DNA of 64,000 nt, taken from positions 132,387,282 to 132,451,281 of the forward strand of contig CP136062.1 of NCBI GenBank assembly GCA_032622095.1. Reading direction: 5' to 3'. Made by a program: the position numbers and the translations under genes. The notes under the pieces are model-generated. The model did not search any database. It was not told the origin of the DNA and saw only the letters and a list, made by a program, of their open reading frames with translations. Shown here one piece after another: positions 2,239-53,000 of the stretch. The DNA is from Siphonodentalium dalli (Eukaryota > Mollusca > Scaphopoda > Gadilida > Siphonodentaliidae). Numbering within the stretch: position 1 is the stretch's first letter; every line of letters starts with the position of its first letter.

Positions 2239-5200
2239 ATGAGTGCGCGCGGTAGGCCCAGAACTACAGGTAAATCTCACAACAAAGAGAGTATAACATA
2301 CAGTTCTAAAAGAAAAAAGCAAGATGATGATGGTAGTCAAAAAATAATTTCATTTTTAAAAGTGGCACAACATGTTGAAAATGAAAGTCAACTTGAAACC
2401 AGCTGCAATGCTGACGTTCTCACTGAACCAGAAGTAGTCACAGAGGACTTGGACCAAACTCCAAAGGTTCCTTCTACTCCATTAGTCCAAGTCTTCTCGT
2501 ACTAAAACTAGCTAAGATTTTGGGATGGAGATGCTAGTGTTTAGTCCGAGTTCCAGGCCCATGCATTTCTATGACACGAGTTACGCCCAGGATCTGTGGC
2601 GGGAATCTGTGGTGTATTTTACTCGATTTACCTAACAAAGCAATACATGATGCTATATACATCGGAAAGAGTGACATCTTATGGTCATAATGGTGTATAA
2701 TAATCTAACTTTAATGTTAAATTACACATAGAATATTCCGGTTGATTGCCACAAACATCGTTGTTTTTTCTGTTTGTTAACTTAACTGAAAGCCGAACTC
2801 AGGTTCCGAAGAACTTCGGCATTGTCCGGTGTTTGTTTTGGCCGAGACGAATTTCGATACAAACAAAATGGCGGCCCCCATGATATTCTAATGGTCATTG
2901 TGTTTACACTGTTTACACTGTTAAACTGTGAGATGGTTATAATTCCCGTAATTTATTTATATCTTCAATATGTATTTAATCTATGTATTTATTGTCACGT
3001 ATAATTACGATTACAATGGAGAATTCATCGTGCGTGGTTGATTGAAAATCTACGGAATATTTTCACCGGAAAATGCCGAACGCAGTTCGCAAGGTCAACT
3101 GAGTTCGTATACTTTAAATAATATGTAAACACTGCTGCAAAAGTTTCTTTTCACATTAAATTACCGCTTTCAATTCACAACCGATGTGGGTTTCAGATCA
3201 AATAGCATGTCTTCTGCGGAAACTATCCGTTTATTGTAGCAATTGTGATATTTTATTTCATATAATTGTGGTTTTATTTGAGCGGGTCACTAACGCTTAC
3301 GTCGTGTCATAGAAATGCATGGGCCTGGAACTCGGACTAAACACTAGCATCTCCATCCCAAAATCTTAGCTAGTTTTAGTACGAGAAGACTTGGACTACT
3401 ACTCCATCTGCTTCTACTACCTCTTCTGACTCAGAAAAAACATCTCAGGTTCCTTCCACTTCTGAAACTAAGGCTTCTTCTGTTGGCCTGAGACAGCGAG
3501 ATATTAAAGCTATATTAGAACAATACCCTACATTTGTCTATTCCAAGGATGGCTTTTTATGTCTTATTTGTTCAAAATATTGTACAGCCGCAGACAGAAA
3601 TCATCCGCAGAATGTTGCTTTCACTGTAACAGGATCAGACCTTGGATGCCACCCTAAAGCGAGACTTGAAGACCACCTAAAGTCAGCTATTCACAAACGT
3701 TGCAAAGAAAATGAAACCACTGCTCTTCGGTTAATCCATCAAGGGGGTTTGGCTGGTGTTTTTGACAAATCACATATTGACGTTGTCACAAACAATCATC
3801 AGTATTTATCACACCTAATAAAAACACTGGACTATCATGTACACCATTACATTGCAAAATCCCAAATAGCAGACTATGTAAAGTTTCTTGTTGACTTACA
3901 AGAACCAACCACAACACATTTCTTCTCCAGAAATAAAGGATATGGGCAGTACATTTCTGGTCCATCAGTCGAAGAACTATTGACTGCCTATAATAAATTC
4001 TGCATTCACAAAACACGTGAATCAATGGAGCGTGGAAAACATTTTACTTTCTATTGTGATGATTCAGAAGCATATAATGATCATGACGAGATGATCGGCT
4101 TTCTGTCATGGGTGGACCCAAGCAAGATATTAGGAACGTTTGTACCCCATGTTTTCCTTAACATTAAATCTGTTACTAATCATGATAGTGATGACCATGT
4201 CATTGATGCACATTCTTACTTTGATGCACCCAGTCTTTATGCTGCAATGAAGGAGGTTATTGCCGGTGAGGAGTTTGCAATGGAGAACATACGCTTCATG
4301 TGTTTTGACGGTACAAATACAATGTCTGGAAAAACAGGTGGTGTTCAGGCATTGTGGCGCAATGATTTTCCAAAAGCCATCTACATCAATTGCCGTAATC
4401 ACCGTTTAGCTTTAGTTTTTGTTCATTTGAAAAAAGCATATCCATTAATGAGTAGCTACGATGAACTTCTATATGACATATATGAAGCTATCGATGCAAG
4501 TAAGGTTGCTAAAACAGTTTTCAACCAAATTCAATCTATAAACGGAGAGAAACATTTCAAATGTTGACGGCATGTTTGACGCGGTGGTTGTCACATTTCA
4601 AAGCTTCGAAGAGAGTTTGCGACAGGTATGAAGATTTATTGGTAACATTTGCAAATATGTTTCAAAGGAAAGACGACACCAAGTATCTCGGCATTAACCA
4701 GCGTCTGACTGATCCGGAAAATGTGTGTACTCTTTTATTGATGACGGACATCCTACATCACACAAACATTCTCTCCACTATGCTACAGGCTACGACTGCC
4801 AACATCCCACAAGTTGTTGAGTATGTGAATGTGTTGAATGGTTATTTGAAGGGTCTACCAAATATGTCTCAGGGTCATTATTCTAAAGTGGATACCTACA
4901 TCCAAAAATCTAAATCATACCGCTCTGAGAGCTCAGGTTATGTTCGCGGAACCAGAAGTGGAGTGAGGGTAGTAGAATTTGACAGAGTAAAATATGAGAC
5001 TGACTTCGTCTTACCATTTTGTCAATCACTGATCAATGAGCTCAATGCTGCATTCTATGATGATCAAAGTACCATTGTCACTAGGTTGTTGGAATTATTC
5101 ATCAAACCGATAAACCATGCTCATGAACTTGACAACGAACTGATAGAGATGCACCTGAGCAGACTTCTTGAGTTTTAAGACTTACAGCCTAAGACTGATG

Positions 5201-5752
5201 GTGTAAGCGGCACTGACTGAGGCTGAGCAAATTATTTTTCTTGGTGAATTAGTAAAGGAATACAATATGTTATACACTCATATCCAACTTATGAAACAAA
5301 AATGGGATTGTGAGAAGAGGGAGCAAATAAAAAATTTGCAGAAAAGATTAGACTTTAAGACAGCAGAGTCCCTTAAGAAATATGTGCCCCAGTATGAAAT
5401 AAATAAAATAGAGGAAAAGATTGACATGCTAAAAATAAAACGTACTACACCAGCAGATGTACTCGAAGTACTGTGTGAGGATAATTTGGCTGATACGGCT
5501 TACATGAACATGAGCTTTTTTCTTAATATATGTTGTGTTCTACCTATGATCTCTAATGCCATTTCCGAGAGAGGTTTCAGCCAAATGCAATTGTTACTGG
5601 GAAAACATCAGGGATCGACAAAAGATGAGACTCTTGATAAACTAATTAGAATACGCATGTTTCCACTCCCTTTGGACAACACATCCATCAATGAAATTAT
5701 AAATATATTTGACAAGGACTTCATCAAAAACAGACATATTAAGTTACATTAG
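2239..5752 (+). pseudogene. hAT transposase (ZNF862/DUF4371-like), broken
   Basis: An ATG at 2239 opens a basic N-terminus with a KRKK stretch. After the nested insertion (2483-3407 counting the duplicated target) the same frame resumes at 3408 and stays open to 4567. It shows a Cys/His cluster (CLICSKYC...HLKSAIH, near 3565-3695) like a TTF/BED-type finger, then YCDDSEAYNDHDE (first acidic motif of the hAT catalytic core) and FDGTNTMSGKTGGVQ near 4300. The protein continues in the next frame from 4561 (TRWLSHFKAS) to 5178, then again in the 3749 frame to 5752. It ends with SNAISERGFSQMQ, the hAT C-terminal dimerisation signature. One frameshift near 4561 and further damage around 5178-5210 make the copy inactive. 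Family resemblance is to ZNF862/DUF4371-type transposases. Confidence 0.88.
2483..3398. mobile_element. Non-autonomous TIR element with 97-bp identical ends, nested in the transposase
   Basis: Positions 2483-2579 and 3302-3398 are perfect inverted repeats of 97 bp starting TAGTCCAAGTCTTC. The nine bases CTACTCCAT directly flank both ends (2474-2482 and 3399-3407), a clean target duplication. The 722-bp interior has no convincing ORF. Long TIRs plus a 9-bp duplication are typical of Mutator-like elements, with Merlin (8-9 bp) as the alternative. Insertion plus duplication adds 925 bp, and the host transposase frame resumes exactly on the other side. The perfect arms indicate a recent insertion or gene conversion between arms. 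Confidence 0.93.
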
Positions 5753-7955: not shown

Positions 7956-8516
7956 GGCAGGTGGGGGAGATGGTCACTAAAAAGTGTACTCCGGCCCCGG
8001 CACCGACTCGGAGAAAATGTGTACTCGGAAGATATATGTTGCATATCTTTTCTACTTTATGAAAAAACAAATTTCTTTTGCTAAATTATATGCTACTATG
8101 CCAATTTATTCAATATCTGATAAAAAATTTACCGAAAAAATTACTAACATACTTTTTAATAGCATTTTTACTTCGATAACACACTAAAAAGTGTACTCCA
8201 AGAAAAAGTGTACCCGAGTTAAATCTTGAATTTCACGCTTCACTATCTACTTCACAAACATTAAATGTTGTACAATACTTTTAACAGGTTGTAGAAATAT
8301 GTTGGTGATATGAATTAATTATTTTATGCAGTGAAACATATTCAATTCTCACATTTGTCGTGGTGTAAAAAAATGTCATACTCCGACCCGACGCCGACTC
8401 AGGGGAAATTGTGTACTCGGAAGATATATTCTACGGGAAAAGTGTTACTTTAAAACATCATAACTACCGTCAGTGGTAGATTACATAAAGATAAATTTTA
8501 GGGATTACTCTATATA

Positions 8517-8830
8517 GTACTCCTAAGGAGAAAGCGTGTGGCCCTGAAAAGGGCCTTTTTAATCTTGGTTTAGACTTTCATCTTCTTCATCTGAAATGAG
8601 AAACTGGAACACGATTAATAGCTCCACCTGAAATTAAACGTGAAATTAACATTGTTTTAATAATATATATATACAGGCTTATCATTTATAATGACATGAT
8701 CATATTCTTACTGATGTCTTGCTCGTTTTCCGATATTTTATACCAAGGATGTCCACGTTCAGCGCGGGTCACTAATGGTGACTCGATCCGAGGTGAGTTG
8801 GGCATCAGTAGAATTACACTAGTCTGTGAC
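8517..8830 (+). repeat. Interior repeat, inverted copy at 15085-15392
   Basis: Starts near CCTAAGGAGAAAGCGTGTGG and includes CCCTGAAAAGGGCC, GTTTTCCGATA and TTCAGCG blocks. The same blocks occur in inverse order and orientation at 15085-15392, at moderate divergence. This links the interiors of the two neighbouring elements. Confidence 0.7.
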
Positions 8831-8842
8831 TACTTAATAAAT

Positions 8843-8982
8843 AGAGCATGGCTTGGAGTGAAATACGCCGATATAGTGCATAGTGCATGCATGAGGTTGT
8901 GTAGTTCACGACGCGAAGCGGAGTGAACTACACAACCGCACTATGCACTATATCGGCGTATTTCACGACAAGTCATGCTCTA
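8843..8982. repeat. 140-bp palindrome (hairpin)
   Basis: AGAGCATGGCTTG...GAAATACGCCGATATAG on the left pairs with CTATATCGGCGTATTTC...AGTCATGCTCT on the right. The short centre lies around GACGCGAAGCGG. A few bases are unpaired on one arm. It could be a small fold-back insertion in the larger element. Confidence 0.85.
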
Positions 8983-9442
8983 ATTATTATATTGTATCGA
9001 ACAAATGCAGAAATTACAAACCTCATTATAATTTACTGAATGTAAGTCTCTCTAAACCTCATTATAATTTACCTTTCTAATTTTGATTTAGCAGTAGGAA
9101 ACTACTATTTTCAACTTTTACTAAGTTCAGACAATTGATGTTCGCCTTACTGAAGCTTTAATTTGGATCAGCGGCGAAATAACAAGTAGTATCAGAACAA
9201 AGTTTGATGTAGTGTTCGTTACTATTTTTAGTAGTCAAAACTACATATGCATAGTGCACGATGGGAGAGACTTGAAGGCGTAGTATACAACTACGACTAA
9301 TAGAGTCGAGTAGCCAACCAATCGGAAAGCTTAATTTCAATAACAAAGTCACGTGAGATACAATATACGTCAATAGAACCATGCAGTCTCATGTGTAGGA
9401 TTCATCATGTCATTATACCATGCATCATAGCGGCGGTGTGAT

Positions 9443-9742
9443 TATGACATCACGACAAATGTGAGAACTGATTATGTTTCACTGAATAAAATAATTAGTT
9501 CATATCACCAATATATTTCTACAACCTGTTAAAAGTATTGTTTGAATGAAGTTAACATTGGTATAACTTCGCTATTATATCATATATCTTCCGAGTACAC
9601 AATTTCCCCCGAGACGGCGTCGGGCCGGAGTATGACATTTTTGACACCACGACAAATGTGAGAATTAAATATGTTTCACTGCATAAAATAATTAATTCAT
9701 ATCACCAATATATTTCTACAACCTGTTAAAAGTATTGTACAA
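9443..9742 (+). repeat. Direct repeat of ~100 bp (9443-9545 and 9640-9742)
   Basis: Both copies read CACGACAAATGTGAGAA, then ATGTTTCACTG, and end ACAACCTGTTAAAAGTATTG. They lie in the right arm of the fold-back element; its left arm holds one inverted copy near 8270-8375. Confidence 0.75.
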
Positions 9743-10050
9743 CATTTAATGTTTGTGAAGTGGATAGTGAAGCGTGAAATTCAAGATTTAACTCGGGTAC
9801 ACTTTTTCTTGGAGTACACTTTTTAGTGTGTTTTCGAAGTAAAAATGCTATTAAAAAGTATGTTAGTAATTTTTTCGGTAAATTTTTTATCACATATTGA
9901 ATAAATTGGCATAGTAGCATATAATTTAGCAAAAGAAATTTGTTTTTCCATAAAGTAGAAAAGATATGCAACATATATCTTCCGAGTACACATTTTCTCC
10001 GAGTCGGATCCGGGGCCGGAGTACACTTTTTAGTGACCATCGGTGGGGGA

Positions 10051-10345
10051 GACACTAATAGTTGTAGTCCTAGTCCGAGCCCGAGACCGAGTCCAGTAAA
10101 ATGTGTAGTTGGGATTTTCAATTTCGTTTATTGTCGTTAATATAATTCCAATAATGATGAATTTTGGTTTGTGGTAAGTTATGCCAATCACAAATAAAAA
10201 AAACTAAAAAGATAATTTGTAAGTCTTATATTTCAACTTTTATCGACATTATTCGTTCTCCAGCACACTAAAAGTTGTAGTTGGAATCAGCCGAGCCAGC
10301 CGCCGAGTAGCTAATTAGCTGTTAATTGCTAATGTTAGGAATATG
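10051..10345 (+). repeat. Left terminal inverted repeat of the larger element
   Basis: Matches 15497-15794 in inverse orientation over about 300 bp, with scattered differences. It contains two copies of a CACTAA(A/T)AGTTGTAGT module, one at the end and one near 10264. Confidence 0.88.
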
Positions 10346-10596
10346 TTGGCGGCTGAAATCAATGGATTTATGAGTGAAGACAAGAGTGTTTGCAACTTAT
10401 AGTGAAATATAATCAAAGTACTGTTTATAGAGTTACTTGTTGTTGCAAGTGTGATCATATCACGCACAGGAATGTGGGTTTTTTTTTTAAGATGTCGCAG
10501 CTTTAGATTCGATAGTCCTTTCACTCAACCACCTGCAAGAGTTTTACGTTCTGGAAATGAAAAGAGGCTTCTGTGATGTCGGCGACTTTCAAATAA

Positions 10597-11157
10597 GAAC
10601 AGAGTTTCGTCACCATCTCCGAGATTGATTCTGAGACCGTCGTACTCCCGAAAGATGTCCAACATCGACTAAGACAATCACACCGTGACAAAATAACAAA
10701 CAACGAGGAATTATGCAGCGACATAATAAATGTTCTACTCAATGCAGATCATAAAAGAACAGTTCGAAGATATCGGCAAAAGAAAGCGACGGCCATGTGG
10801 TATATTCTCTTTAGTGTTTTTGGTAGAATGTTGTACAACCCGGAAAACTGGTAACACTTCTTTTATAAATGTTAAATTACGCCAACACCTTTCAGATTGT
10901 TTGGTTGGAACAGAAATGCTTCTCCGCATTTCCTTCAAGGAAGAAGCAAATGAAACTCAATAAGAAGCATGTATTAACGTATGAATTGGAACTAGATTGT
11001 GATAAATGCCGTTTGCCAAATTTCTTTGATGACATGGTCGAATGCTCTAAGGAGCTAGATTGTGAGACATGGGTGGGCATTTTTCAAAAAAAGTGGCTTA
11101 TTTCTGTCCATCACCTTTTTTTATTAGAAAAGTGTATTAATGATCACATTTTTTAAT
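10597..11157 (+). pseudogene. ORF remnants of unknown protein, possible PHD-like finger
   Basis: A frame open from 10597 to 10854 (85 codons, no ATG near its start, preceded by TAA) has basic residues (RRYRQKKATAMWY). A second open stretch at 10869-11157 in another frame contains CDKCRLPNFFDDMVEC followed by a W. The Cys spacing and the following W resemble the start of a PHD-type zinc finger with part missing. A short block like its GIFQKKW end also occurs inverted near 14960-14995. I do not recognise the protein. It may be the decayed ORF of the surrounding transposon. Confidence 0.35.
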
Positions 11158-12307
11158 TTGAGATATCAAATGGTATGGGGTCAACTTGTTACAGACCGTA
11201 GACCGTCCGCTCATTGGTATCTCTACATCCCAGAGGCTCGTAATATGGCAAAAATGGTCAATTATGCCAGTCCCATTTTCTGGAATCCCCCCAAAGACAT
11301 ACATTTTCGTATAAAATATGACCATTAAATACCACTTTATTTGACAAATTGCATCATATGTAACATACCTGATCATAAAATCACAAAGTATGCGAAATGT
11401 TTACCAATTCAAGTGACAAAATTTAGCTCACAACACTGTCCCACGATTGGTGGTCCCTACTGTTACCAAGAGAGAAACACAGAATACAACAGTCTTGGCA
11501 TTGGGGAATAAGGAAGTGCAAATTGGTTTTCAGTACTACTCATCAATACATATGGCTAAACAAATGTCGTCTGTTGGTCGGCGCAGTTAATTTGCCTGTA
11601 ATTGACAGTTTTATTCACCAAAAAGGTGAGTACATTGGGAGTGTGTCACTACTGTTACCATAGATACAGGTCTGTGAGTTTGTTATTACACAAATGTTTC
11701 TCTTCTTAGTTTTGTCCAAGGTGATCCCTATGAGGCAACATATACATTTTGTTTCATTCCAATGGACGACCAGGAGGAATCCCCATTATAAACCCGAAAC
11801 GTCTCTACTGTTACCGTCCCTACTGTTACCCTTGAAATAGTAACAGTAGGGAACATTTTGGTAAGAGCAGGGACAAAATTCAGCATAGGCATGAGTAAGT
11901 TTTAGTCTGCACGTAATAATTATTTTTACATCACCCGACTCTGGTTCTTTGCTTATTATATCAATATTTTCACAGATTTTACCCATCAGTCCTGTCTCAT
12001 TCACATAATGCTGGACGTGGTAACAGGAGGGACATTGTGGTAACAGCAGTGTCAATCCATTACATAATTGTTATTGTTGGCAATGAATTGACATATATTT
12101 GTTTTTCCTTGCATAACGCCTTCCATTCTTGTCTTCCAAACACTCATTTTGGTATATAATCTTTTCTAGTATACTTGATTGAGATCCAGTAAACGAAAGT
12201 ATAGGTGCTCATTCGCAATGATCAAACAGTTTTCACATACATTCACATAGGGCACATTCTCGTGCCCAACACTAACCCATGTAAACTGTCAAATATACAC
12301 ACACCAC

Positions 12308-12812
12308 TGATCAAGTGGTCCTGCTAATATGCTATGATGCTGGTGGTCCTGCTGAATTGTTATGATGCGGGTAGGGCAAACTAATGCCGTTACGAACTAG
12401 TAGCGTTATTTTTTCTAAAGTTGTCATGTTCGCGATGTTTGACTAGTCCGAGCGATTTGAGAAAAAACCAGTGTATGTATGAAAGATTCAAGAACATATA
12501 TATATTTGATAAATATAATAATGCCTGCGCTGGTGTTTTTAAAATGACGTGAATAACCCATCTTTGATTATAGTCAATTTTCAACAACTAATACATTACA
12601 TTAAAAATATTTCGCAATAAATATATTTTTGAATGTTTGATACGCATAATGGCTTTTCCTGCATATATTCAGATTATCGGAACACCGCGAAAAAGACAAA
12701 TTAAAATTTTTAAAGGTACTTATTGTTAACAGCATCAGTTTGCCCTAACATCATCATAGCAATTCAGCAGGACCCAACCGCAACATAGCACATTAGCAGA
12801 CCACTTGACCAG
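12308..12812. mobile_element. MITE-like insertion with ~80-bp inverted ends
   Basis: 12308-12387 and 12731-12812 are diverged inverted repeats sharing TCAAGTGGTC, GAATTG and AGTTTGCCCTA. The ~340-bp interior is AT-rich with no ORF. No clear target duplication could be fixed. Confidence 0.65.
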
Positions 12813-13770
12813 GGGTGATACGGGTATCTTTTTTGCGCAATTCTCACCGATATTTGATTCCTTTTTCTGTTCAGTTTATGGCCCTTTCAGCAGCAGTAAA
12901 ACAACTTCATCGTTGATTTCTGAAAGAGTCCTATTTATCCTATTACTATTTTGCATATTGGTGTACCATTAATGATAAATCTGTCGGCGCAACCTCGAAA
13001 TATGAGCTGGTGATATATTTTGATTGACAACCTAATTTCAAGCACCCACGAAATTGAATAATGATTGCGTTTATGCCACGGTACATGTATGTGAAAAATC
13101 ATTTACTTGTGAGGTACTAAATTATAAATCCGAACAATGTATCTTCATCATTCCATAGCGAGTCCATTAGTCGTCTATGAGGTATATGCACTATACAGGG
13201 TTTACTATAGTCAGCATTTAACGAGATCACCACCCTTGTGTAAACAAATAACAAAGAGCAATCGGTGTTAAGTAGCTATCAACATACTGGTAGTAATTGG
13301 TAAATTACCACTGTACACCATCACCTGCCACACCGTGTGGACAATTATATAGTCAGTTTGTGCTTGGAGTCAGAAGTTGTTCAATCTAATCCTGTCCAAT
13401 AACCACATAAAAATCCCTTTTAAAGCCAATTACAGTGGAATTTCAAACAAAACGTGTTTTGTTCATGATACGACAGCTGTACAATGTGTCTGATGAAGTT
13501 CATTTCATCAAATTTCGAGCAGGGCATCGATGAACATCGTGCGAAAATGTATTATTGTATTATCATGTTCAATACTATATTTAAACGCAATGGTCATGTG
13601 TGTCTTGCTTATTGTCACTATATGTCGTATTATTATGCCATTACCAGTGTGTTGTCACTATTTATAGTTAAAATTGTCATGCAGTTCTGCAATAATACAT
13701 CATACGAAGAACAAAAATCCACCATTATAGTCTGACAACACATACGAATTGTCAATATGCTATAGTTACG

Positions 13771-14056
13771 AGGGGCCTCGGTGGCTCAATCGGTTAGGGG
13801 TACCACTCCAAGCTGTTTCGCCCTCCAGCGCTGGCGATAAGGGTTCAATTCCACATGTTTCCATCGTGGACTTTGTAACTTGCCAGTTACTCGCCGATGG
13901 TCGGTGGTTTGCCGCACATGGTTGACGAGTTTATCAGCCATTGAAATCACTGTTAGATTAGTCGCAAGTGTGCGGATTTCCTCCACCACAAAAACTGCAA
14001 TGTCGTGATATGGCCTTAGTGGCTAAAGCGACAATAAACCCCAATCAATCAATCAA
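13771..14056 (+). mobile_element. tRNA-derived SINE, complete, 12-bp target duplication
   Basis: The head GGGGCCTCGGTGGCTCAAT, with TGGCTCAATCGG as an A-box-like motif and GGTTCAATTCC as a B-box, marks an RNA polymerase III promoter of tRNA origin. The body includes GTTTATCAGCCATTGAAATC and the 3' end is ACCCCAATCAATCAATCAA. GCTATAGTTACG flanks both sides exactly (13759-13770 and 14057-14068). The perfect duplication indicates a fairly recent insertion into the larger element. Confidence 0.93.
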
Positions 14057-15084
14057 GCTATAGTTACGCTAATGTCCTTCCTGTTATCAATGACCAATTG
14101 CGGCGTGTATTTCATAAATTGCACCTATATTTTACTATCAGAACGTTAGCTTTTAGTTATCCTGTGCCTGGTCGAATACTATATTGTGTTCTTTGTCATA
14201 TTTTGTATGTGTGAGTCCTTCCTGTTACTACCAGTCCCTCCTGTTACCAAATGATGGCCTTAAATGCATCAGACTCTCAGTTAATTCATTTTGTTTCCAG
14301 TTGTAGTACGCATTTTGTCCAGTTGGATCTCGTTCACGTATAGAAAATTACATTTTGTTTTATTGTTAGAAATAATGTTTCCACAAGTATGTGCATAATA
14401 AAACTGTCCCTTCTGTTACTTCAAGTGTCTCTCCTGTTACTGGTTTGTCACACCTGTTACCGTGGATCTTTTCTGTCGTATCGAGATTAATTTGAATTAG
14501 ATTCCCTCATCCCGATAGAATTGTGGAGTGTTTACCTTACCCTTCGGAAAAATATATGGCCATAATAAAATAGAAATGCACATCTTTCCAGGTCGAGAAC
14601 AATCGATCCCTGGATATCGGAAATTTATGCATATCACGTATACATTATCATAACTCGTTATGCTTATCATGTTTTTGGTGTTTATTTATGCAACTTCTGA
14701 TGACCACACAATGCACACGTTGCGCATTTATTATTTTCCACCTCTATATCACACAAAATCATATTTATATTGAATAAATTAACGGTAACAGTAGGGACAC
14801 TAGGTGTGTGTGCATCGTCATTGGACCTGATCCGGACAGGATATAGGGGTGATTAAGATTGCACTTTACTTTCATCAGTTCTACTGGATATCCCTCAACC
14901 AGGAAAACAGGTAAGATACGTTCTTTCGTAGAAATAATTTTTTGATTCTTGAATACCCAAATCGGCCACATTTTTTGAAAAATGCCCATGGGTACACCAT
15001 ATGTGTATACCGGTGAACCCCAGAGTTATATATGCAACAGTTGTTCAGTTTGATCAAAATTATAAATTAAGTTTATTGCTATAT

Positions 15085-15392
15085 CTAGAATGACATGATG
15101 AATCCTACTTATGCCCAACTAACCTTGTGACCAGTCACCATTATAGTGACGCACGCTGAACGTGTAGCTCCTTGGTAAACGTATCGGAAAACGAGGTAGA
15201 CATCAGTCGGATTATTATAGTGTCATTATGTAAATAATATATTAATAATGTACTAATATCACGTTTTATTTCAGGTGTTATTAATGTTTTTCAAGTTTAT
15301 AATTTCAGGTGCAGTTCATGGCGAATAAGATGGAAGTCAAGATAAAAAAAACGGCCCTTTTCAGGGGCACACACTTTCTCCTGAAGAGTAAT
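15085..15392 (-). repeat. Inverted copy of the 8517-8830 repeat
   Basis: Contains AACGTATCGGAAAACGAG and GGCCCTTTTCAGGGGCACAC, the inverse of blocks at 8517-8830. Confidence 0.7.
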
Positions 15393-15496
15393 CTTTAAAA
15401 TTGCTAAACCTTCATAATTATATTGCTTAATAAACAAAAGTCATTGTTTGTTTTTATTCCCACTACTTGCCCTTTGATCTTCATGTGACCCACCAC

Positions 15497-15794
15497 TGAC
15501 TTAATCCAATTAGCCGCCTAACAATAGCAATTAACAGCCAATTAGCGACTCGGCGGCTGATTCCAACTACAACTTTTAGTGTGCTGGAGAACGAAAAATG
15601 TCGATAAAAGTTGATAAATAAGACTTACAGATTATCTTTTTAGTTTTTATTATTTGTAATTGGCATAACTTACCACAAACCAAAATTCATCATTATTGGA
15701 ATTATATTAACGACAATAAACGAAATTGAAAATCCCAACTACACATTTTACTGGACTCGGGCTCGGGCTCGGACTACAACTATTAGTGTGTCCC
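15497..15794 (-). repeat. Right terminal inverted repeat of the larger element
   Basis: Inverse of 10051-10345. Ends CAACTATTAGTGTGTCCC and is followed by the imperfect 9-bp target duplicate. Confidence 0.88.
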
Positions 15795-16099
15795 GGCAGG
15801 TGCTCGGAAAATTAAGCTCTCCCAGCGATATTCCTTCAAATGTTGTTCTCATATAGTCATGTGTCTGGACCTCGACCGATCCGACTCAACTTTGGTATGT
15901 AGGCCTACTTTGATCCCGGAAACAATATGGACGGGTCCAATTTCACGTGCGATCGTGTCCTTGACATTGACATTGACCTCGCTCATATAGGCATGTTTCT
16001 GGGCCGATAGAACAATAGTTTGTTCAGACGCTCCAAACGGAGGCGATCACAAAGAAATCCCTACATAGCCAGGACGACGTCGGACACATCAGCTAGTAC

Positions 16100-16350: not shown

Positions 16351-16605
16351 GTGTGCATGGCCCAGCCATTGTTCATACATAAACATCGAACGCAATTAAC
16401 GCGGTCATAATAGTTACATAGTACATACTGCAACTATAAGACATCCAGCGAATACATGCCCCACGAAAACCCGAAATGTGTTGTCCTGCGAGATATCCCA
16501 TCGCTATAGCTCAATTTGACACGGCCATATTGGCCTTTCTACAATATCCTAAACAATAAAGCTTCTCAAATCATCGGCATAGTCAATAGAACTTTCACGA
16601 ACTTG

Positions 16606-16668
16606 GACATTCCAACTACAGCTTTTACCGGACTCGGGGTGGCAGTACAACTTTAACGCATCCCAAAA
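16606..16668 (-). repeat. Diverged CACTAA-family terminal module
   Basis: CCAACTACAGCTTTTACCGG, then ACTCGG and AGTACAACTTTAACGC, is the inverse of the module at 19595-19655 and resembles the right end at 15720-15790. The partner end on the left was not found. Confidence 0.55.
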
Positions 16669-19500: not shown

Positions 19501-19594
19501 ATTTATTCCGCGCTCCGCGTGTATAATGTTTCGCTGTTTCTTGTTCTACAGTGGGCGCGTGTGCGTTTTATTTATAGAATGGGAATTTTTGGAC

Positions 19595-19830
19595 GGATTA
19601 AAAGTCGAACTGCGACCCGGAGGCCGAGTCCGGTAAACGGTGTAGTTGGAAATTTCAATTTCAATTGTTATTCGGATGCCAAGAAGTGCAAGGCGATTAA
19701 TTCTATGTGTTGGTCATTCGTGAAACCAATATATTTTATATTCTATAATTACAATCATGGGTACATAATATATTATCTTGAACGCGTTACCATTTCTGAC
19801 TATGGTTTTCTTGTTTGTGTATGTGGCGGC
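19595..19830 (+). repeat. CACTAA-family left-end-like repeat
   Basis: GGCCGAGTCCGGTAAACGG then TGTAGTTGGAAATTTC parallels the left end of the element at 10051. It is followed by ACCAATATATTTTATATTC and ACCATTTCTGACTATGG, shared with 16100-16190 (inverted), 22230-22320 and 30510-30590. No matching right end was found. Confidence 0.6.
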
Positions 19831-30660: not shown

Positions 30661-30830
30661 ACTCATGCAGTGGTCTCGTTCATTGCTTCGTATGAGCGGG
30701 GTGGGGAAGGTGAGTCCCATAGTAAATGACGTTTGCATACCTATCCCTGTCTAAGTCCCTGTCTGTCAATCAGGGGCCTCGGTGGCGCAGTCGGTTAGAG
30801 GTACAACTAGTTATCTGGTGCCGATTGGAC

Positions 30831-32974: not shown

Positions 32975-33117
32975 GACTACATGCTCAGCGAGTTTATCAG
33001 CCATTGAAATCACTGTTCGACCAGCCGTAAGTGTGCGGATTTCCACCACCACTAAAACTGGCAATGTCGTGATATGGCCTTAGTTGCTGAAAGCGACATT
33101 AATCCCCAATCAATCAA

Positions 33118-33850
33118 TCTGTCTGACGTACACCACATTTTAAATTATATTACACAAGACGAGAAATGTTACAATTTAATACCGCGGTATATACTTATAA
33201 TTTCTTATTTATTTGATTACCACTTCCCACTTTGCCGCAGCACAGACCTTGTCGTAGACCACGTCTTCTCGGTTCACAACAGCTTGGGATATCCGTTGGG
33301 TTATGCTGTTTTGGACCGAGTCCCATTCCGTTACTCTTCTATAACCGAGCTTTAACTTAGCCTTTAAGCACAGGGCGGGAGTTATCTTTCGTGTAGATGT
33401 CTTCGGTTAAGATCAAATGGGAGATTTGCGTATATATATATAAATTGGACATAGAGGACAGCCTGTCCCAATCATGATACTGGAGGTCAGTTAAATGTCA
33501 AAGCAACGAGATATATAAGTAAACAAAGCCTTGTTTTCCATGCAGAAAATTTCGATTTGTCACGGTATCAGAAAATGCATGTAAACAATACATTAAACGT
33601 TCGTATTACCACCATACCTTTTTCTATCACGGTAAATGATATACCATTTTGAAGACTGGTTAATCGCCGACATGTCAGATGATTAATCACATTCAGGGAT
33701 TTACATGAATTTTTTGTCTCTTCGTGTACACTGTATACAGTACGTCTTTTGAATGAAAGTTCATTATAGAAGAGCAACGGGCGGGACTCGGACCAAAACA
33801 GCATCAACCCAACCAATCTTGGTCTAACCTTGTCGTTGAAATTGTGAAAT
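33118..33850. other. No gene recognised
   Basis: Open frames at 33074-33355 (plus) and 33568-33816 (minus) show no motifs; the former begins inside the SINE tail and is judged chance. Confidence 0.4.
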
Positions 33851-44024: not shown

Positions 44025-47000
44025 CTGCAAAAAAGTAAGAATAAATAAATTGAAGCTTTCTGTACCAAGAATTAATCATTTCTCAAAATACTCATTGATG
44101 AGTAGTTCCCACAGCAAATGTTCACATAAGTTCAACAAACGACCATACTTATTATTTAAACATTTCCCAACTATGAATATGAATTCGCCCACTTGTATGA
44201 TCATTTCGTCTGGCTGTCTGTCATCTGCTCATATATCCTTAACATCCCTCGTAATGAATAATAGACCATTCCAATGTATACTTTTCTAACTGATTGGGAG
44301 AATTCATTCGGTATAGAAAGTGTTAAAGAACAACAGCTAGGAAAATTGAATTTGCAACCCAAAGATTATTCAATGTCTGTCACATTAGTTATTCTCTGCT
44401 ATACAGTGTAGAAGTCAGCACACACAAATAGCATAATAAATGATATTTGTGAATGTAAAGTGACAATACAAACATTCAGAAGAAAGCATGCATTTTGTTA
44501 TCATAAATTGTAATCTGTTTTTTGAGAAGGAAGTATATTTATGTTGATTTTAGCATAAGGGGCGAGATGTAGAATGTAACAACCACTCACCTGGCATGAT
44601 ACCGGGTTGCATCATTGGCATGCCAAGACCAGCTGGAGGAACGTACCCAGGAATATTTGGGTACATGAGCGGCAGCATTGACGGGTCCATACCAGGAGGC
44701 ATGAATGAGCCAAAGGGGTTCAGCATCTGATGATTGAGAAACTCCTCACCAGGTTTCCGCCCTTCTGTAAATATAATTAGATTACATTATAACATGGAAT
44801 ATCAAGCTCTAAAATCACTAAAGATGGGCCTATCTCTTTCTACAAGCCTTGAAACAGGGTGTCTGTCATTTGCAGAATGAGGTCCCCAAAGGGTGAATTT
44901 AGTGATGCTACCCCGCATAGCAGAGGGTGAATTTGGTGATGCTAGCCCGCAATGCGGGGTAGCATAACTAAATTCACCCTCTGGGGACCCCATTCTGCAA
45001 ATGACAGAAATACTATTTCAAGGCTTGTCTTTCCAACAAGTTATATATAGTTTATGGGGCATAAAATAATAAATATGAATCGACGTCCTGCCCGGAAACA
45101 CTTCAATCAAATTTTTATCAAATTTTTACAATTTTATCTCACATAATATTTAAAAATTTGGGGGACAGTTTTACCGGCTATTTTAAGAACGAAAATTTAT
45201 AGGCACATTTGGAGCGTAGCAAGAGGGTGATATCTTGTTAGAAATCTCTATCAAGGAAAAATGTCTTTTTGATTCAGATATTCTGCAGGAATAAACCACT
45301 TTATTATGCCATTATAGAAAAATAATATACACAATATTCACAGAAAAAGGTATTTGAAGTCTTGAAATCGAGCTTGATAAGTTGATATAATAAAAATTCT
45401 GTTGCTGTTGTAATTGTGGCCCGGGAAAAGATACACCAATGGATTGCTCCGTAATCTTCTGCAGAATTGTTCTGATACAGTAAAAGTAAGTTCAACAAAC
45501 AGCCTCAACAGTTCAATGAATTTATTGTCTGTATATCCTCGATGACTGAATGATGACTTATCATCCTAATTATATGATATACAGATTAAAAGATATAAAT
45601 TAGCTACTGTTTGAAACAGGAAGCTATGAAATCTAAAAAGTATTTAAAACATAAAATTATGTTTTATTGCTATAACAGCAAGTGTACCTGTACTACGTAG
45701 GACATGGTACTCACCTTCTAGTTTAATATCACCCGGTTTCTTTTCGAGTCTATCATTTTCTTTGGATCTTTCATTTTTGGCGCTATACGATTTCCCCAAT
45801 CCTGTAAACAAATATTCAGTTATTATAATTTTTCTCTAAACAACAACCCCAAATACATTGAAACAAGGCTAAACTAGGTCTGTAAATACCGCAAGGCAGT
45901 AGACAAGTTCCATGCTAAATTCAAATGACAATTTACTGACCTATGCAGTGGCTATGTGAGCTTGATAAGCTCAATATGATTTCGTTCACAAGAGTACAAT
46001 GTAAAGAAGACAAACAGAGAATTTCATACAGATTATAAAAAACTTTATAATTCTTCGCAGATAAAATATCAACCCTTTCTATACTAAATACGCATTGATG
46101 AGTAGTTATCCCTCAGAAATGTTCAGATAATAAGTTCAACAAATGACCATATTATCTGAACATTTCCCTCCAATAAACTGAACTCCTGTTGTAGTTGTGA
46201 TATCTGCTTATGTTACTTGTACATCCCTCTAAATCAATAATAGACCTTTCCAATGTAGACTTTTTTAACATGGTTGGGGGAATCCAATTTAGATTTAGCA
46301 TAGAAAGTGTTAATGAGGTGGCACTTATTCCACCATATATTAACCCAAGGACAGTCAACTGCAGTGAGAAAATATTTAATTTTTTTTTTTTTTACAAAAT
46401 GGATTCTCCCTTCAGTTGTAAAAATTAATACATTGGAATGGTCAATTATTCATCTGGAGTGGTGTACAGGAAATATAAGCAGACAACAGATAATACAAGT
46501 GCAGAAGGCTTCCTATTCACAGGTGGGAAATATTCACGAAATATGTTTGTTTGTTGAACTTCTTATCTTAACATTTTCTGACGGAACTAATTGTCAATGA
46601 GTATTTAACCCATTCAGCGCCAAGTCCGATTTTTGTATCATCCCATATTTCCTTGATCATTTAAAAAAAAAATTGATCAAGGAAATATGGGTTGATACAA
46701 AAATCAGACTTGGCACTGAAAGGGTTAATAGAGAAATTGTTAAAAACAAAATTATTTTATGAAGCAAGCCTTGAAATAGCGTGCCTGTCATTTGCAGAAT
46801 GAGGTCCCCAGAGGGTGAATTTAGTGATGCTACCCCGCATAGCGGGCTAGCATCACCAAATTCACCCTCTGGGGACCTCATTCTGCTTACGGGTAGCATC
46901 ACTAAATTCACCCTCTGGGAACCTCATTCTGCAAATGACAGACACAATTATTTCAAGGCTTGTTATGAAGGATATTAATTTACCTCCGAATCCTCCCATT

Positions 47001-50000
47001 GCCATGGCGTTGACTTGAGAAGAGTTGAATCCGCTATGATTGGAATTCTCCCAGGATGACTTTATTGCATCATACTCCTGTTGCTGTCGAGCGAGTGGAT
47101 TAGGTGTCTCCTTCTCGGGGTCACAGTGCATTCGCAGCAGTGATTTGAGATTGTCTAAGTGTTTCTTGGTGAAGATATGATCCTGTACAGTGTACTTGTG
47201 AGAATACTTGAAGTTACAGATCTTGCACAGCTCGGGAGGTTTAGGGAAGTCCATACTGTTATAGCTTCCACCTCTCTCGGGAGTCTTCACCTTCTTCTCC
47301 TTCGCACGGGCATTTTGGAACCATACTTGCACGACCCTCTTTGCCAGGCCTATTTGGTTACCAAGCATCTCGCATTCTGCCATTGTTGGAGTCTTGTAAT
47401 CCTGGAAGTGAACAACATTGATTGCATGTTGATAGGATTATTATAAAATAATTGGTGTGTAGATATCTTTAAAAAAAATTGTTGAAAGGCGAAACTAGAG
47501 ATATTGGATACACAGAAGAATTATTAATTTGTCCTGGAGTCTAGATGAATATGTAGTGTACATTGACATATATCTTGTGACATTTTCTCTGGAAAATATC
47601 TTTATTATCATCAAATTAACCAGTTTTTTAGTTTCTTTAGAAATTTTCTTTTTAATTTTTAGTTTAGTTTCCCTATATCCCCAAATTGGCAGACAACACA
47701 ATGCATAATCAAGGTGCCCAATAGGTGCACATCACCATCTTCACCATCTGGGAACCTAAGTCTGAGTCTAGGTCTCCCACAGCATTTGAGGCATGCAGAA
47801 TGAGGTCCCTAGAGGATGAATTTGGTGATGCTAGCCCACACTGCGGGGCAGCGTAACTAAATTCACCCTCTGTGGACCTCATTCTGCAAATGTCCAGCAC
47901 TGCATTTTGAGGCCTGGATACACCATTATTTGACTCCACTACTCACCTGAAACAGGAGCTTCATCAGTTTGACCTGAGAATTTGTCATCTGGGTGCGATG
48001 CCGTTTCATCTGGTTCATGTGATTCGAGAAGCCTGTTGGTGATGGCGGCGTGTTGCTGTTGTCGTTCATGTCCATCGAATCGAAGCTGAACCGTCTGCTT
48101 TCATCGATGCTGTGCTCGCTCAAATCTGTTGATGGTCCATCAGATGATGATTTGTCCTCCGTCGAAACTTTGATTGGCTTGCTCAAATCCAAGGGAGCAT
48201 CATCGTTGTCATATTGTCGGAATGGTGCCGGAAGAGGAGCAGAGGGAGGCGTTTGTGGGGGCGGCGGCTTCTTTGGATGATTGGGGGTGCCACTCAATTC
48301 ATTGAAGAATTTCTTGTAAGAATCTTCATAGAACTGCTTCATGGTCATCTGTATTGGATCCGCCATCATAGTCGGCAGTGACATGCTTGACTGTGGCATC
48401 ATGGGAAATAGTTGCTGCATGGGAGCTGGCGGTGAGAACAGTTTACTGAGATCATTTATGTTTGGAGCCATGGCTTGTAATGGCTTGCCAGGGATAGGCG
48501 TGGAGGAGCCAGGCGATTCCATAGCGGCATCGGGAATGCTGTCGACGCTAATTTCACCTCGTGCCATCTCCTCAGGATGTTTGGTGGCCAGATGAGACTC
48601 CAGGGCAGACTTTGCTCTGAATAGCGCCTTGCAGAATGGACATCGCTTGTGAATCAGCTGCTGGTGGGCGCGGTACTGACCCTTCCTCTCACGAGCTCGT
48701 GTATTCTGGAACCACACCTAAAAATATTTAATTATTTTTGTTGTGTGTTTAACCCATTCTATACTAAATACTCATTGATGAGTAGTTATCCCATAGGAAA
48801 TGTTCAGATAATAAGTTCAACAAACGACCATAGGTTGTTTGTTGAACTTATTTTCTAAACATTTCCCTCAATTATAGGGCTCCTTCTGCACTTTTATTTA
48901 TCTGTCATCTGCTTTTATCACCATGACATCCCTCCAGATAAATATTATGCATACTTTAAATACTGAATGGGAGAATGCATTTAGTATAGAAAAGGTTATA
49001 GACCACACAATAACAGTGAAAAACTAATACAAACAACTCGATCTTTTTGATGATATTCAGCAAGTATCTCATATCCAGATGTATAGAGGAAATAGTTGAT
49101 TGAACATTAGAAACTATAGATTGTGCTCATAAACATATCTGGAGACACTACTCCATTATTCTCACACACAATCAAGACTGTGGGTGAACAAATGTAAATA
49201 TTTTCATAACATAAAATTTTTCAGTTGTGATATGTGCATATTTTCCATTGAAAATCTCCTGTTTCAATTATTTTTAAGTCAAAAATGTTTAAATATTTAA
49301 ATTGTAGTTTTGTTACTTATTCCTCAATTTAAAATCTATTTTTAAACAATTTAAGTCAAATATGTGATGCACCCGATATGGTTCATGTGTTTTTGTAGAT
49401 AATTATACAACCATGTTTTCAAATGAAGTTTTAGTGAAAAAAAATAAAAAATTCTGTTATTCTTAAAATTTTATAATTTAGAAACTAAATTACCTGAACA
49501 ACACGCTTTTTCAGCTGAACCTCTGCAGCAATGGCTTCCAGCTGTTTGCGACTCGGATTGCAGTCAATCTGGTACTTCTGATAGAGATAATCCAACTGCT
49601 CGGGCAGAATAGTCGTCCTTAATCTCTTATCTCGTGGCTGATCATCACGATCGTCTTCATCACTTGGTCTTTTCAGCGGTGAGAGATTAGATGGATGGCC
49701 GAAGTCGAGCTGTTTCTGCATCTGTAGCTGTTGATGCATCTGCTGTTGTGAGGCAGCTGACTGAAGCATTCCTAATGCGCTGTTCATACTGAAACTTGGA
49801 AATATACTAGGGTGCAGGATGTGGATGTTCTGATGTTCCTGATACTGTTCCAAACTCGTAAAGTCAAGATTACATTTGTCGCACTGCATCTTTGGTTTCT
49901 TTGAAAGGTTCAATTCTGGGGTCTTCTCTGGAATGAGTTCTTTCTTAATCGATTCCTTCAGTTTGAAATCTTCTTTCATGCGGTCGTGATTCATAGATGG

Positions 50001-53000
50001 CTCTTCAGCAATGTCGTCACTATTACCAAATCCCAGATCTTCTGGAGAGAAATGTGAAGCCTGACGTTGATGCTTAATAAGCTCGTAATATCTCTGGAAA
50101 ACTGCGGAACATTTCTTGCAGTGATAACTGAGCGACATTGCCTTGTTATTATGAGGAGACGTCAGCTGTCGTTCTTTATCGCCGTCAGATGATGATGAAT
50201 TGTTGTTATCTGATGCTGGTGCCTGATTCTCGTAAACTTTGCGAGCTTTCTGTCTCTGGTTCTGGAACCAGACGGTTATCACTCGTGGATTCAAAGAAAG
50301 GGTCGATGATAGACGCTCTAATTCGGTGTCTTTAGGGTAGGCGTTCCTGTCAAAGTATTCCTGCAAAGACCTGATCTGGAAGTCACTGAACCTTGTCCTG
50401 TTAGCTCTCTTCCCTGATGAGCTAGCATGAGCCAAGTGCTCAGCCAAGTTGAAGCCATCATGTGTTGGAGTGGTTGCCGTTGACAACGATGTTGATGGAG
50501 TTGTTGGTGTAGCTGGCATTGACATTGAATTATCAGACTGATAGTCAATAACTAAATCTTGTGAATCGTTATCTTCTTTTTCTTCTTGCTTGATGATGTC
50601 CATAGGTGGCTGCGGCTTCTCACATACAGGCTCACGAGAAATAATTTCACCAGACTTCTCCGAATCAGGCGAGCTCTCGTTGACTGGAATCTTTCCTGTA
50701 CGCTCATACTCTTCTAGATCCAAAGTAGTAGTTGGAGCATTGCTGAAATTGTATGGCGAGTCTTTATTTCTCTGGCGCTCTTTAAATAGAGTGTTTCTGA
50801 ACCAGTGCTTGATGACCTTAGCTGGCAAACCTGATTGGTCGGACATGCAAATCACTTGCTCTTCTGTCGGTGAATTGTTGATGTCAAAGTAAGCTCGTAG
50901 GATTTTGAGTTGGTCGTCGCTGATTCTTGTTCGTGCTCTCTTCTGATTGGCTGCAGATTGCTGTGCTTGACGTTGAGCTGCCAGAATACTGGGATCTATG
51001 AATGGATTTGGGGACCCAAGTCCAACACTTGAATCGATACCTGGTGACATCATTGGCATGAATGAAGGCGTCATAGTCGAGTTCGGCATAAACGGCATCG
51101 GCATTGGCATCATACCATACATTGGGAATAGCTGAGACATCTCAAAAGCCGAGGGATGTTGCGACGTGGGTAATGACGGAATAACGGAAGCAGCAGATAC
51201 GACAGGTACGTCTTGTGATTTATCGCTAACTGAATCAGCACTGGGACATCGCTGAGGCTGATCTTTCTCTGATACATTCGGGGTAGCAGGTTCATTGTTT
51301 TGAGGTTGCTTCTTATCAAAGTCGCTCTTGAACTTCTCCCCAAAATCTTCAATCACATTGAGTGGCACCGACACTTTATGCAGTTCCTCTTCGTGAGCTT
51401 TTAGCACCCATACACTAGAAAAAATTAAATTGCATGATTTGCAGGGATGTTTGTCGATTTCTGGTATATCAATTTCAGTCTTAGCTGTGTCCATCGTTTC
51501 ATCTGATCTTTGATCAATATTATCGTCATTACTTTCCTGATCTCTCTCTCTTCGTCGACATGACTGGGTGTATTCGTTAAACTGCATTACGCACTCGAAG
51601 CCAATATTCTCCAACAAATGCTTGTGCAGAGGAAGTTTCGCTCTCGAAAAATTCATCTTAAAGTGTGACATGTCAACATCTCCACTAGATTCTCTGACCT
51701 TCATTTTGTCTGAATCGGTTTCGTTTGCTCTATATTTGGAATCATTTTGCTCTCGTTTTATTTTCACGTCCAAAGCGGCAGATGGTACCGCAGCACTTAA
51801 AGCTGAAGTTGTAATGAGATTATCAGCTACAGACTGTGCAAGCAGTAACTGAATCGTAGGATCCATGGTCGGCATAATAGGAATGTGTGGCATTGTGGGA
51901 AATCCACCAAATGATGTCGGAATTCCAGGGAAAAACATAGGCTGCGACAGTGGGTTTCCTAGTGCCATTGCTGGAGACATATTGTGCATGAAGTCCGACA
52001 ACATCTGTTTTTGTTGCTGCTGCATTTTACAGTTTCCTGATTCTGGCTGCTCAATAAGTGGCTGAGTGATGTCGACTTGACCAGATAGAACAAGTTCTTG
52101 TAACTTGGATGCCCTCGTCTGATGAGCCACTGACCGCATGTGTATATCCAGTGTAGAAAGCTGACTGTACGACACTTTACAAATATTACATTTGTAAAGT
52201 CTTTTCTCTGCATCAGAAGCATTGGTCGTCACGGTACTAGATGCTGAGGAAGCAGAAACTGTCGTGCTGGAAGTTGTTACAGTAGCAGTAGTCGTCACAG
52301 TCGAAGTAGCAGGTGTCAAATCTTCCGCTGTTGTTGGTGTCGGAGAATCGCTCTGCAGCTTCACTTTATGAAGGTGAGACACAGAGTTGTAGTGAACGAG
52401 AAGAATATTTTTCTGTGTGAATGATTCCATACATATATCACACTTATACGGTCGATTCGGATCAAGGAACTTCTCCATCGGATAGCTTAACTTATCTCCC
52501 TTCCGGTGCTGTAGTGTCTTGTTGTGCCCCGTCAGGTAGTTCTGTTTAGTAAAGGCCACCTTGCATCGATGACATTTATACTTGCGAATTGGGTCGTCGT
52601 AGCTACCTTCTGCCATAGCCTGACTATTGATATAGTCTTCCATGAACTGCTGATCTTTGTAAGTCGGATCGAAGTCGCTTTTAGCATCTGCATCATCTTG
52701 AAACTTTTCCGACAGCACTGAATTTTGCGTTGAATCATCATCGTTACTCGGTTCCGATTTCATGTAAGTCAGATTATTTGCATTAATATCCGGTTCCTGA
52801 GAAACTTCCATTGCAACTATAGCTGAATTTTTGGCATCTGCGATAGAAGTCTGATTCAATGCAACAGAACAATCTTCCAGTTTCTCAAGCTCTGACGAAT
52901 CATTATGGCACGTCTCAATGTGATTCTTGAGTGAAGGGATGGATTTGCAAGTTTTCGCACATATATTACATCTAGTCGCTGCCTGAATTAGATGATACTG

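Follow-up and report, generated by a model that had tools for sequence, protein, structure and literature searches.

The 64,000-nucleotide stretch analyzed here (the window; C2:132387282-132451281) belongs to a genome of 2.23 Gb in 9 contigs and contains two related DNA transposons, one nested in the tip of the other, which by their sequence features are animal Mutator-type elements (Mutator-like elements, MULEs) of one lineage. This lineage carries a histone-type stem-loop behind its transposase gene, on the sense strand, and in the families of both the outer and the inner element a purine tract follows it at histone spacing. The whole set of observations is, in our judgment, likely to be best explained by a single MULE lineage with a transposase like that of the complete genomic copy E1 and an mRNA 3′ end of histone type that would give replication-coupled expression. 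All results come from this one genome, and the counts from genome searches are lower bounds.

The nested arrangement was confirmed by alignment of the terminal inverted repeats (TIRs) and comparison of the target duplications, which gave the following features:

7969-10041, minus strand (on which its 3′-untranslated-region remnant reads): inner element, about 2.07 kb, TIRs 97% alike
7969-8429, plus strand: left TIR of the inner element; 8379-8429 holds a second end-like module
9582-10041, minus strand: right TIR of the inner element
10046-15794, plus strand: outer element, resuming at 10046 and ending at 15794; its first 5 tip bases are also found at 7964-7968
10047-10339, plus strand: left TIR of the outer element
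15517-15794, minus strand: right TIR of the outer element
7956-7963, no strand: left target duplication of the outer element, GGCAGGTG, identical to 15795-15802
15795-15802, no strand: right target duplication of the outer element, GGCAGGTG, identical to 7956-7963
7960-7968, no strand: left target duplication of the inner element, GGTGGGGGA, identical to 10042-10050; its last five bases are the outer tip
10042-10050, no strand: right target duplication of the inner element, GGTGGGGGA, identical to 7960-7968

The inner TIR pair aligns over 461 columns with 448 identities, 12 mismatches, and 1 gap; the outer pair spans 293 columns, of which 267 are identical, 11 mismatched, and 15 gapped. Because the inner duplication joins the final 4 bp of the outer duplication to the 5 bp with which the outer element starts, the outer element was inserted first and the inner one second. 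TIR divergence agrees modestly with this order (9% for the outer versus 3% for the inner pair with gaps counted; 4.0% versus 2.6% from mismatches alone). An earlier note on this DNA had recognized the nesting and the overlap of the inner target with the outer duplication, which amounts to 4 bp; it had placed the insertion four bases inside the outer left end, but the inner duplication takes up 5 bp of the outer element. The inner element probably represents a short, nonautonomous MULE derivative with no recognizable transposase; a palindrome at 8835-8989, 81% self-complementary, lies within it.

Genome copies place the true tips at GATGGTCACTAA for the inner and GGGACACACTAA for the outer family, starting with GATGGT and GGGACA, respectively, so that the CACTAA motif formerly taken as the terminus lies 6 bp inside. 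The search for inner ends yielded 40 scored matches among 640 candidates. For the inner family, 12 copies with both ends were available, and the duplications agreed at 9/9 positions in six of them (window, L009, L015, L016, L021, and L059), at 8/9 in L010 and L014, at 7/9 in L027, and at 6/9 in L023; no duplication match was present in the two remaining paired copies (L011+L012 and L013). Outer-family duplications are perfect over 8 bp in all three paired copies (window, E1, and the insert in L021), and in E1 a ninth base matches if the left tip is read one G shorter. The 9-bp length first assigned to the duplications thus holds for the inner family, the outer family having 8 bp. Tabulated over genome copies, the duplications proved 8-9 bp long, not 2-3 bp. 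The homology of the first ~60 bp of the two elements was upheld, as was the presence of repeated end modules in both arms. The supposed local family near 16.6 and 19.6 kb was likewise borne out by similarity to the outer TIR (83% over 42 bp and 78% over 72 bp, respectively); these sites, at 16597-16663 and 19591-19662, are single ends of further outer relatives, with no partner ends seen in the window.

Rather than by chance, the inner element may have reached the outer tip through a target preference for the ends of related elements, an explanation that we regard as quite possible, if on the doubtful side. A reciprocal case exists among the fetched loci, in L021, where an outer-type element sits within 16 bp of the end of an inner-type element (duplication CTTTTTAG), and the chance of one further case in 30-50 insertions is roughly 0.001, an estimate that uses first-look candidate counts (640 and 1375) and is not exact. 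This is, however, the only case of tip nesting beyond the one that prompted the analysis. In L025, an inner element is located roughly 185 bp inside an outer-like end.

The transposase of the lineage is best represented by E1. A protein query taken from L010 gave 150 scored matches among 302 candidates in the genome, one of which lies in an 873-amino-acid open frame. This frame belongs to a complete outer-family copy (E1; C1:26379978-26384365; 4,388 bp) with identical GGGACACACTAA tips and the duplication GGTATGTT, and it matches the MULE catalytic domain (PF10551) with 32.9 bits at a Pfam cut-off of 27.6. An intact copy with a transposase, which the earlier note had proposed to look for, is therefore present in the genome. 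Locus L069 is E1 itself, and L075 is another copy that closely resembles it. The frame may be extended to 962 amino acids by a short first exon, joined via a putative 25-bp intron, the alternative being a frameshift. A search of solved structures with the E1 frame returned two matches (E 0.34 and 0.78). The longest transposase pieces of the inner family are 54% (L036) and 75% (L033) identical to E1, and a 65-amino-acid stretch of a third family shows 31% identity to the E1 protein. Two other candidates were rejected: L011+L012, considered as a 10.8-kb full element, has flanks that do not match, and the 6.3-kb L016, considered as a transposase carrier, has an interior consisting of an inverted pair of reverse-transcriptase-like frames, as judged by eye. 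The latter (L016:3366-9676) combines inner-family ends and a perfect 9-bp duplication with enclosed frames of 480 and 463 amino acids, and one of its flanks is the same repeat as an L028 flank.

Both window elements contain a match to the Rfam model of the histone 3′-untranslated-region (3′-UTR) stem-loop (RF00032, gathering score 34):

8540-8555, minus strand: inner stem-loop GGCCCTTTTCAGGGCC; RF00032 match 8560-8514, 33.1 bits, E 1.3e-6 (8 kb) or 1.1e-5 (64 kb)
15353-15368, plus strand: outer stem-loop GGCCCTTTTCAGGGGC, one pair broken; RF00032 match 15348-15392, 25.2 bits, E 0.0012 (8 kb) or 0.0094 (64 kb)

With up to two mismatches allowed, GGYYCTTTTYAGRRCC occurs in the window only at these two sites, and two or more sites were also obtained in 10 of 100 shuffles. 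The case for a histone signal rests on the relatives and not on the window copies. A query with the inner region retrieved 53 matches, from 40 scored among 230 candidates. Among 20 loci, all chosen for matching the stem-loop region, 14 reach the RF00032 gathering score; another four give weaker matches, and L034 and L051 have no RF00032 match. One of 19 loci fetched by TIR matches reaches the score (L028; L025 was left out for size), as do E1 and L075 out of six further loci. The transposase frame of E1 closes with a stop codon ending at 3520, and approximately 0.42 kb downstream, at 3945-3960 on the sense strand, lies the stem-loop.

An alignment of the region comprises 38 rows from 35 places, with 13 rows of inner type, 21 of outer type, and four of the third family; L033/L063, L042/L056, and L053/L055 represent the same places twice, and L023/L031 and L034/L035 lie in duplicated segments. 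The 16-nt core is identical across the three family consensuses. Together with short flanks, 21-22 of 23 positions are identical, versus 60%, 37%, and 52% of the surrounding columns (Fisher p 0.003, 2e-7, and 5e-5), and between the inner and outer consensuses the downstream side is itself identical at 22 of 31 positions.

The genome also offers a comparison with presumed histone genes of the host. The best 75 of 409,530 candidate RF00032 matches are all above the cut-off; 63 are situated in tandem arrays on C5 (111.4-111.7 Mb) and C8 (156.3-156.9 Mb), and 12 are outside the arrays. Array spacing is often near 4 kb, as histone repeats would give, and the arrays presumably encode histones. Two array members that were read have identical stem-loop stretches, both with AAACGGCCCTTTTCAGGGCCAC. 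The consensus of the outer family contains this sequence as well; E1 has a T in place of the final C, and in the inner and third families the bases preceding the stem are different. The purine tract following the stem is AAAAAGA from 14 nt in the host, AAAGA from 15 nt in E1, and AAGA from 16 nt in the consensus of the inner family.

From these data the following sequence of events can be proposed. The E1 transposase would combine the MULE catalytic domain with a SWIM-like zinc motif, an Ulp1-like protease part, and a PHD-like zinc part, and would act on TIRs with repeated end modules, leaving duplications of 8 bp in the outer and 9 bp in the inner family; the short inner copy would later have jumped into the outer tip. 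The transposase mRNA of E1 would carry a histone-type 3′-end signal, i.e., the stem-loop and a purine tract at histone spacing. The histone machinery (SLBP and U7) cleaves 4-5 nt downstream of the stem-loop, and host SLBP and the U7 small nuclear ribonucleoprotein might cut the transposase mRNA there, resulting in a nonpolyadenylated, replication-coupled message and confining transposition to S phase. The AATAAA further downstream could give an alternative polyadenylated form. In the inner family, a twister sequence described below may serve as a second, self-cleaving device for end formation or as a fail-safe against read-through. We give a little less than an even chance to the more specific proposal that the transposase mRNA is under the host histone 3′-end pathway and made only during DNA replication, one branch having added self-cleaving twisters and a further conserved, possibly structured RNA module lying upstream.

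A number of observations weigh against a histone-type 3′ end on a MULE transposase message. Both window copies score below the RF00032 gathering score, the outer one with a broken pair. An Rfam scan of the 64 kb with E up to 1 gave 22 matches, including two microRNA models on palindromes with lower E-values than the histone match, which makes the histone E-value weak if taken alone. All six pairs are kept in 25 of the 38 aligned rows (22 of 35 places), and only six of 19 TIR-fetched regions hold the stem-loop region at all (L014, L017, L021, L023, L027, and L028). E1 has AATAAA at 4017, 57 nt after its stem-loop. The third family shows AAGA only at 23, hence no purine tract at histone spacing, and the trace of its own transposase gene is the 65-amino-acid match. 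The histone identity of the host arrays is presumed. Within the E1 frame, the matches to Ulp1 peptidase (17.1 bits, cut-off 20.7) and PHD (11.6 bits, cut-off 24) fall below the Pfam cut-offs, and the resemblance of a CxC...CxH motif to SWIM was judged by eye. Finally, four of four distant MULE families (L071-L074) lack the stem-loop within ~1.1 kb downstream; other tandem, hairpin-like modules, recognized by eye, directly follow the transposase match in these loci.

The stem-loop might instead be a passenger, a piece of host histone 3′ UTR that an ancestor of the lineage picked up and that has no role. Twenty-two bases are common to the outer-family consensus and the presumed histone stem-loop of the host, and capture of host gene fragments by MULEs is known (PMC6446971). 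A passenger should, however, decay along with its flanks, and here the core is unchanged in three consensuses whose surroundings are only 37-60% identical. In addition, the stem-loop is found behind the gene and on the sense strand in those copies where the gene was read, and the purine tract is kept at histone spacing in two of the three families. We therefore consider the passenger explanation unlikely. Far less probable still is an element of transposition at the DNA or RNA level, such as a transposase-binding hairpin, whose likeness to the histone signal would be superficial. The stem-loop does lie within a few hundred bases of one TIR in E1 and the two window elements, but it is present at one end only in these, and the match takes in the unpaired flanks (A-rich and ACAC) of the histone signal as well as the host's own stem variant.

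The placement in the Mutator superfamily is based on the ends, the long TIRs (461 and ~293 alignment columns), the 8-9-bp duplications, which fall in the 8-11-bp range of MULEs in both families, and the transposase of E1, whose 873-amino-acid frame includes the catalytic domain above the Pfam cut-off; Pfam scans of the window copies themselves did not detect PF10551. CACTA (EnSpm) elements have CACTA or CACTG termini and duplicate 2-3 bp. That the elements are CACTA transposons with odd duplications has virtually no chance of being correct, as the CACTAA six bases inside the tips is outweighed by the GATGGT and GGGACA tips, the 8-9-bp duplications, and the MULE-type transposase, which already refute it. 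The doubt voiced earlier about a CACTA affiliation was thus justified, but the features listed above do not leave the elements outside the known superfamilies. The unusual feature of this MULE lineage, a histone-type signal behind the transposase gene, had gone unnoticed in the earlier note.

With the MuDR superfamily of MULEs the elements share long TIRs, duplications of 8-9 bp, deletion derivatives, and a MULE transposase domain that exceeds the Pfam cut-off, and they differ in the histone stem-loop behind the transposase gene and the twister sequences of the inner family. MULEs bearing Ulp1 are known in plants. Rehavkus, a MULE relative, is described as duplicating 9 bp and as having TIRs of 26-400 bp, a PHD finger, and a minisatellite before the 3′ TIR (PMC6446971); the terms Ulp1, protease, and peptidase are absent from the main text of that paper. 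Compared by description, Rehavkus resembles the present elements in the duplication length of the inner family; where Rehavkus has a PHD finger, E1 gives a PHD match of 11.6 bits, below the cut-off of 24, and the Rehavkus minisatellite can be likened to the tandem modules downstream of the gene in L071-L074, whereas the Ulp1-like part, the histone stem-loop, the 461-bp inner TIR, and the 8-bp outer duplication set our elements apart. Plant MULEs with multiple tandem TIRs likewise have repeated end modules within each arm (PMC3310237), but the modules described here are short and diverged and the hosts there are plants.

Replication-dependent histone mRNAs possess a stem-loop and a purine-rich downstream element, with cleavage between them, and the stem-loop is regarded as their hallmark (PMC2781718). 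Metazoan histone genes (RF00032) agree with E1 in having both signals on the sense strand after the stop codon; E1 differs in that the gene encodes a transposase, the 3′ UTR is ~0.42 kb, and AATAAA follows downstream. In titles and the beginnings of abstracts, no account of a histone stem-loop or a twister ribozyme in a DNA transposon was found, which is no proof of absence, as subscription papers were mostly outside reach. If true, the proposal would provide a natural case of a nonhistone mobile gene borrowing the histone 3′-end pathway, with cell-cycle control of transposition written into the end of the element's own mRNA. The timing of cut-and-paste transposons to replication would become testable via one 16-nt hairpin, and the combination of stem-loop and twister would represent a natural system for mRNA end formation other than by poly(A).

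Of the 12 inner-type rows that hold the stem-loop region, nine (L014, L023, L027, L028, L031, L033, L036, L051, and L054) have Twister-P1 sequences (RF03160) further downstream on the same strand; with L023/L031 and L034/L035 each counted once, the figure is eight of 10. Measured from where the aligned region starts, its stem opening at base 46, the first copy is found at 307-351 nt in eight rows and at 80 nt in L051; four inner-type rows have a second copy. The highest-scoring sequence, L013:943-1008 on the minus strand, reaches 69.7 bits and exceeds the gathering score of 67.2, with L051 (66), L054 (51.9), and L033 (39) remaining below it. Further copies are 92-100% identical to that of L013 over the parts aligned by BLAST or score lower. 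L013, L017, and L026 have a twister without an inner-type stem-loop region, and the inner copy of the window lacks a twister sequence.

A 3′-UTR module of ~115-130 nt, often in two tandem copies, is present in all three families (e.g., L069:998-1111 and 848-973; L052:6-134 and 199-323). Its window copies are as follows:

8691-8816, minus strand: module of the inner element, shared with the outer family; closing stem similar to CTACTGATG/CATCAGTAG
15098-15226, plus strand: module of the outer element

The closing stem is altered on both sides between some copies, and no Rfam match to the module was obtained at E 0.01 in 20 scanned loci. RNAalifold on 28 module rows indicated limited covariation, with double changes in 2 of 16 pairs. 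In a structure named by hand, 94.4% of cells are paired and the covariation score lies above all 500 shuffles; its 3 of 21 pairs with double changes were reached by 72 of the 500 shuffles and its nine further pair types by 65. We regard the module as a candidate structured RNA.

The outer element of the window is an internally deleted relative of E1 that was interrupted by a further insertion. Identity to E1 is 92-96% in 10047-10483, 10501-11074 (four blocks), and 15101-15794, and 82% in 14987-15235; most of the transposase gene is missing. The remaining features are:

10500-11075, plus strand: MULE transposase remnants of the outer element, 88-93% amino-acid identity to the E1 protein (tblastn), with deletions between blocks
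10796-11075, plus strand: Ulp1/PHD-like end of the transposase remnant (tblastn versus E1)
11075-14987, no strand: 3.9-kb unclassified insertion with TIR GGGCATTTTTC, which breaks the outer gene; duplication ATGGGT at 11069-11074 and 14988-14993

Six-frame Pfam scans of 10340-15520 and 8430-9581, with stops as X, revealed no transposase, the remnants being visible only in comparison with E1. The 3.9-kb insertion contains scattered motifs resembling CTACTGTTACC and an inverted repeat, 70% alike, at 12302-12817. A further insertion resembling a short interspersed element occupies 13771-14056 and is flanked by the 12-bp duplication GCTATAGTTACG at 13759-13770 and 14057-14068; related pieces were observed at 30772-30808 and 32989-33119.

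Elsewhere in the window, three plus-strand frames at 3380-5752 (395, 221, and 181 amino acids) seem to be pieces of one gene, perhaps of a hAT-type transposase as judged by eye, with no Pfam match. A large zinc-finger homeobox gene, which we take to be ZFHX-like, is located at 46862-53381 on the minus strand; its 1,298-amino-acid frame includes three homeodomain stretches and C2H2 fingers, and its presence identifies the host as an animal.

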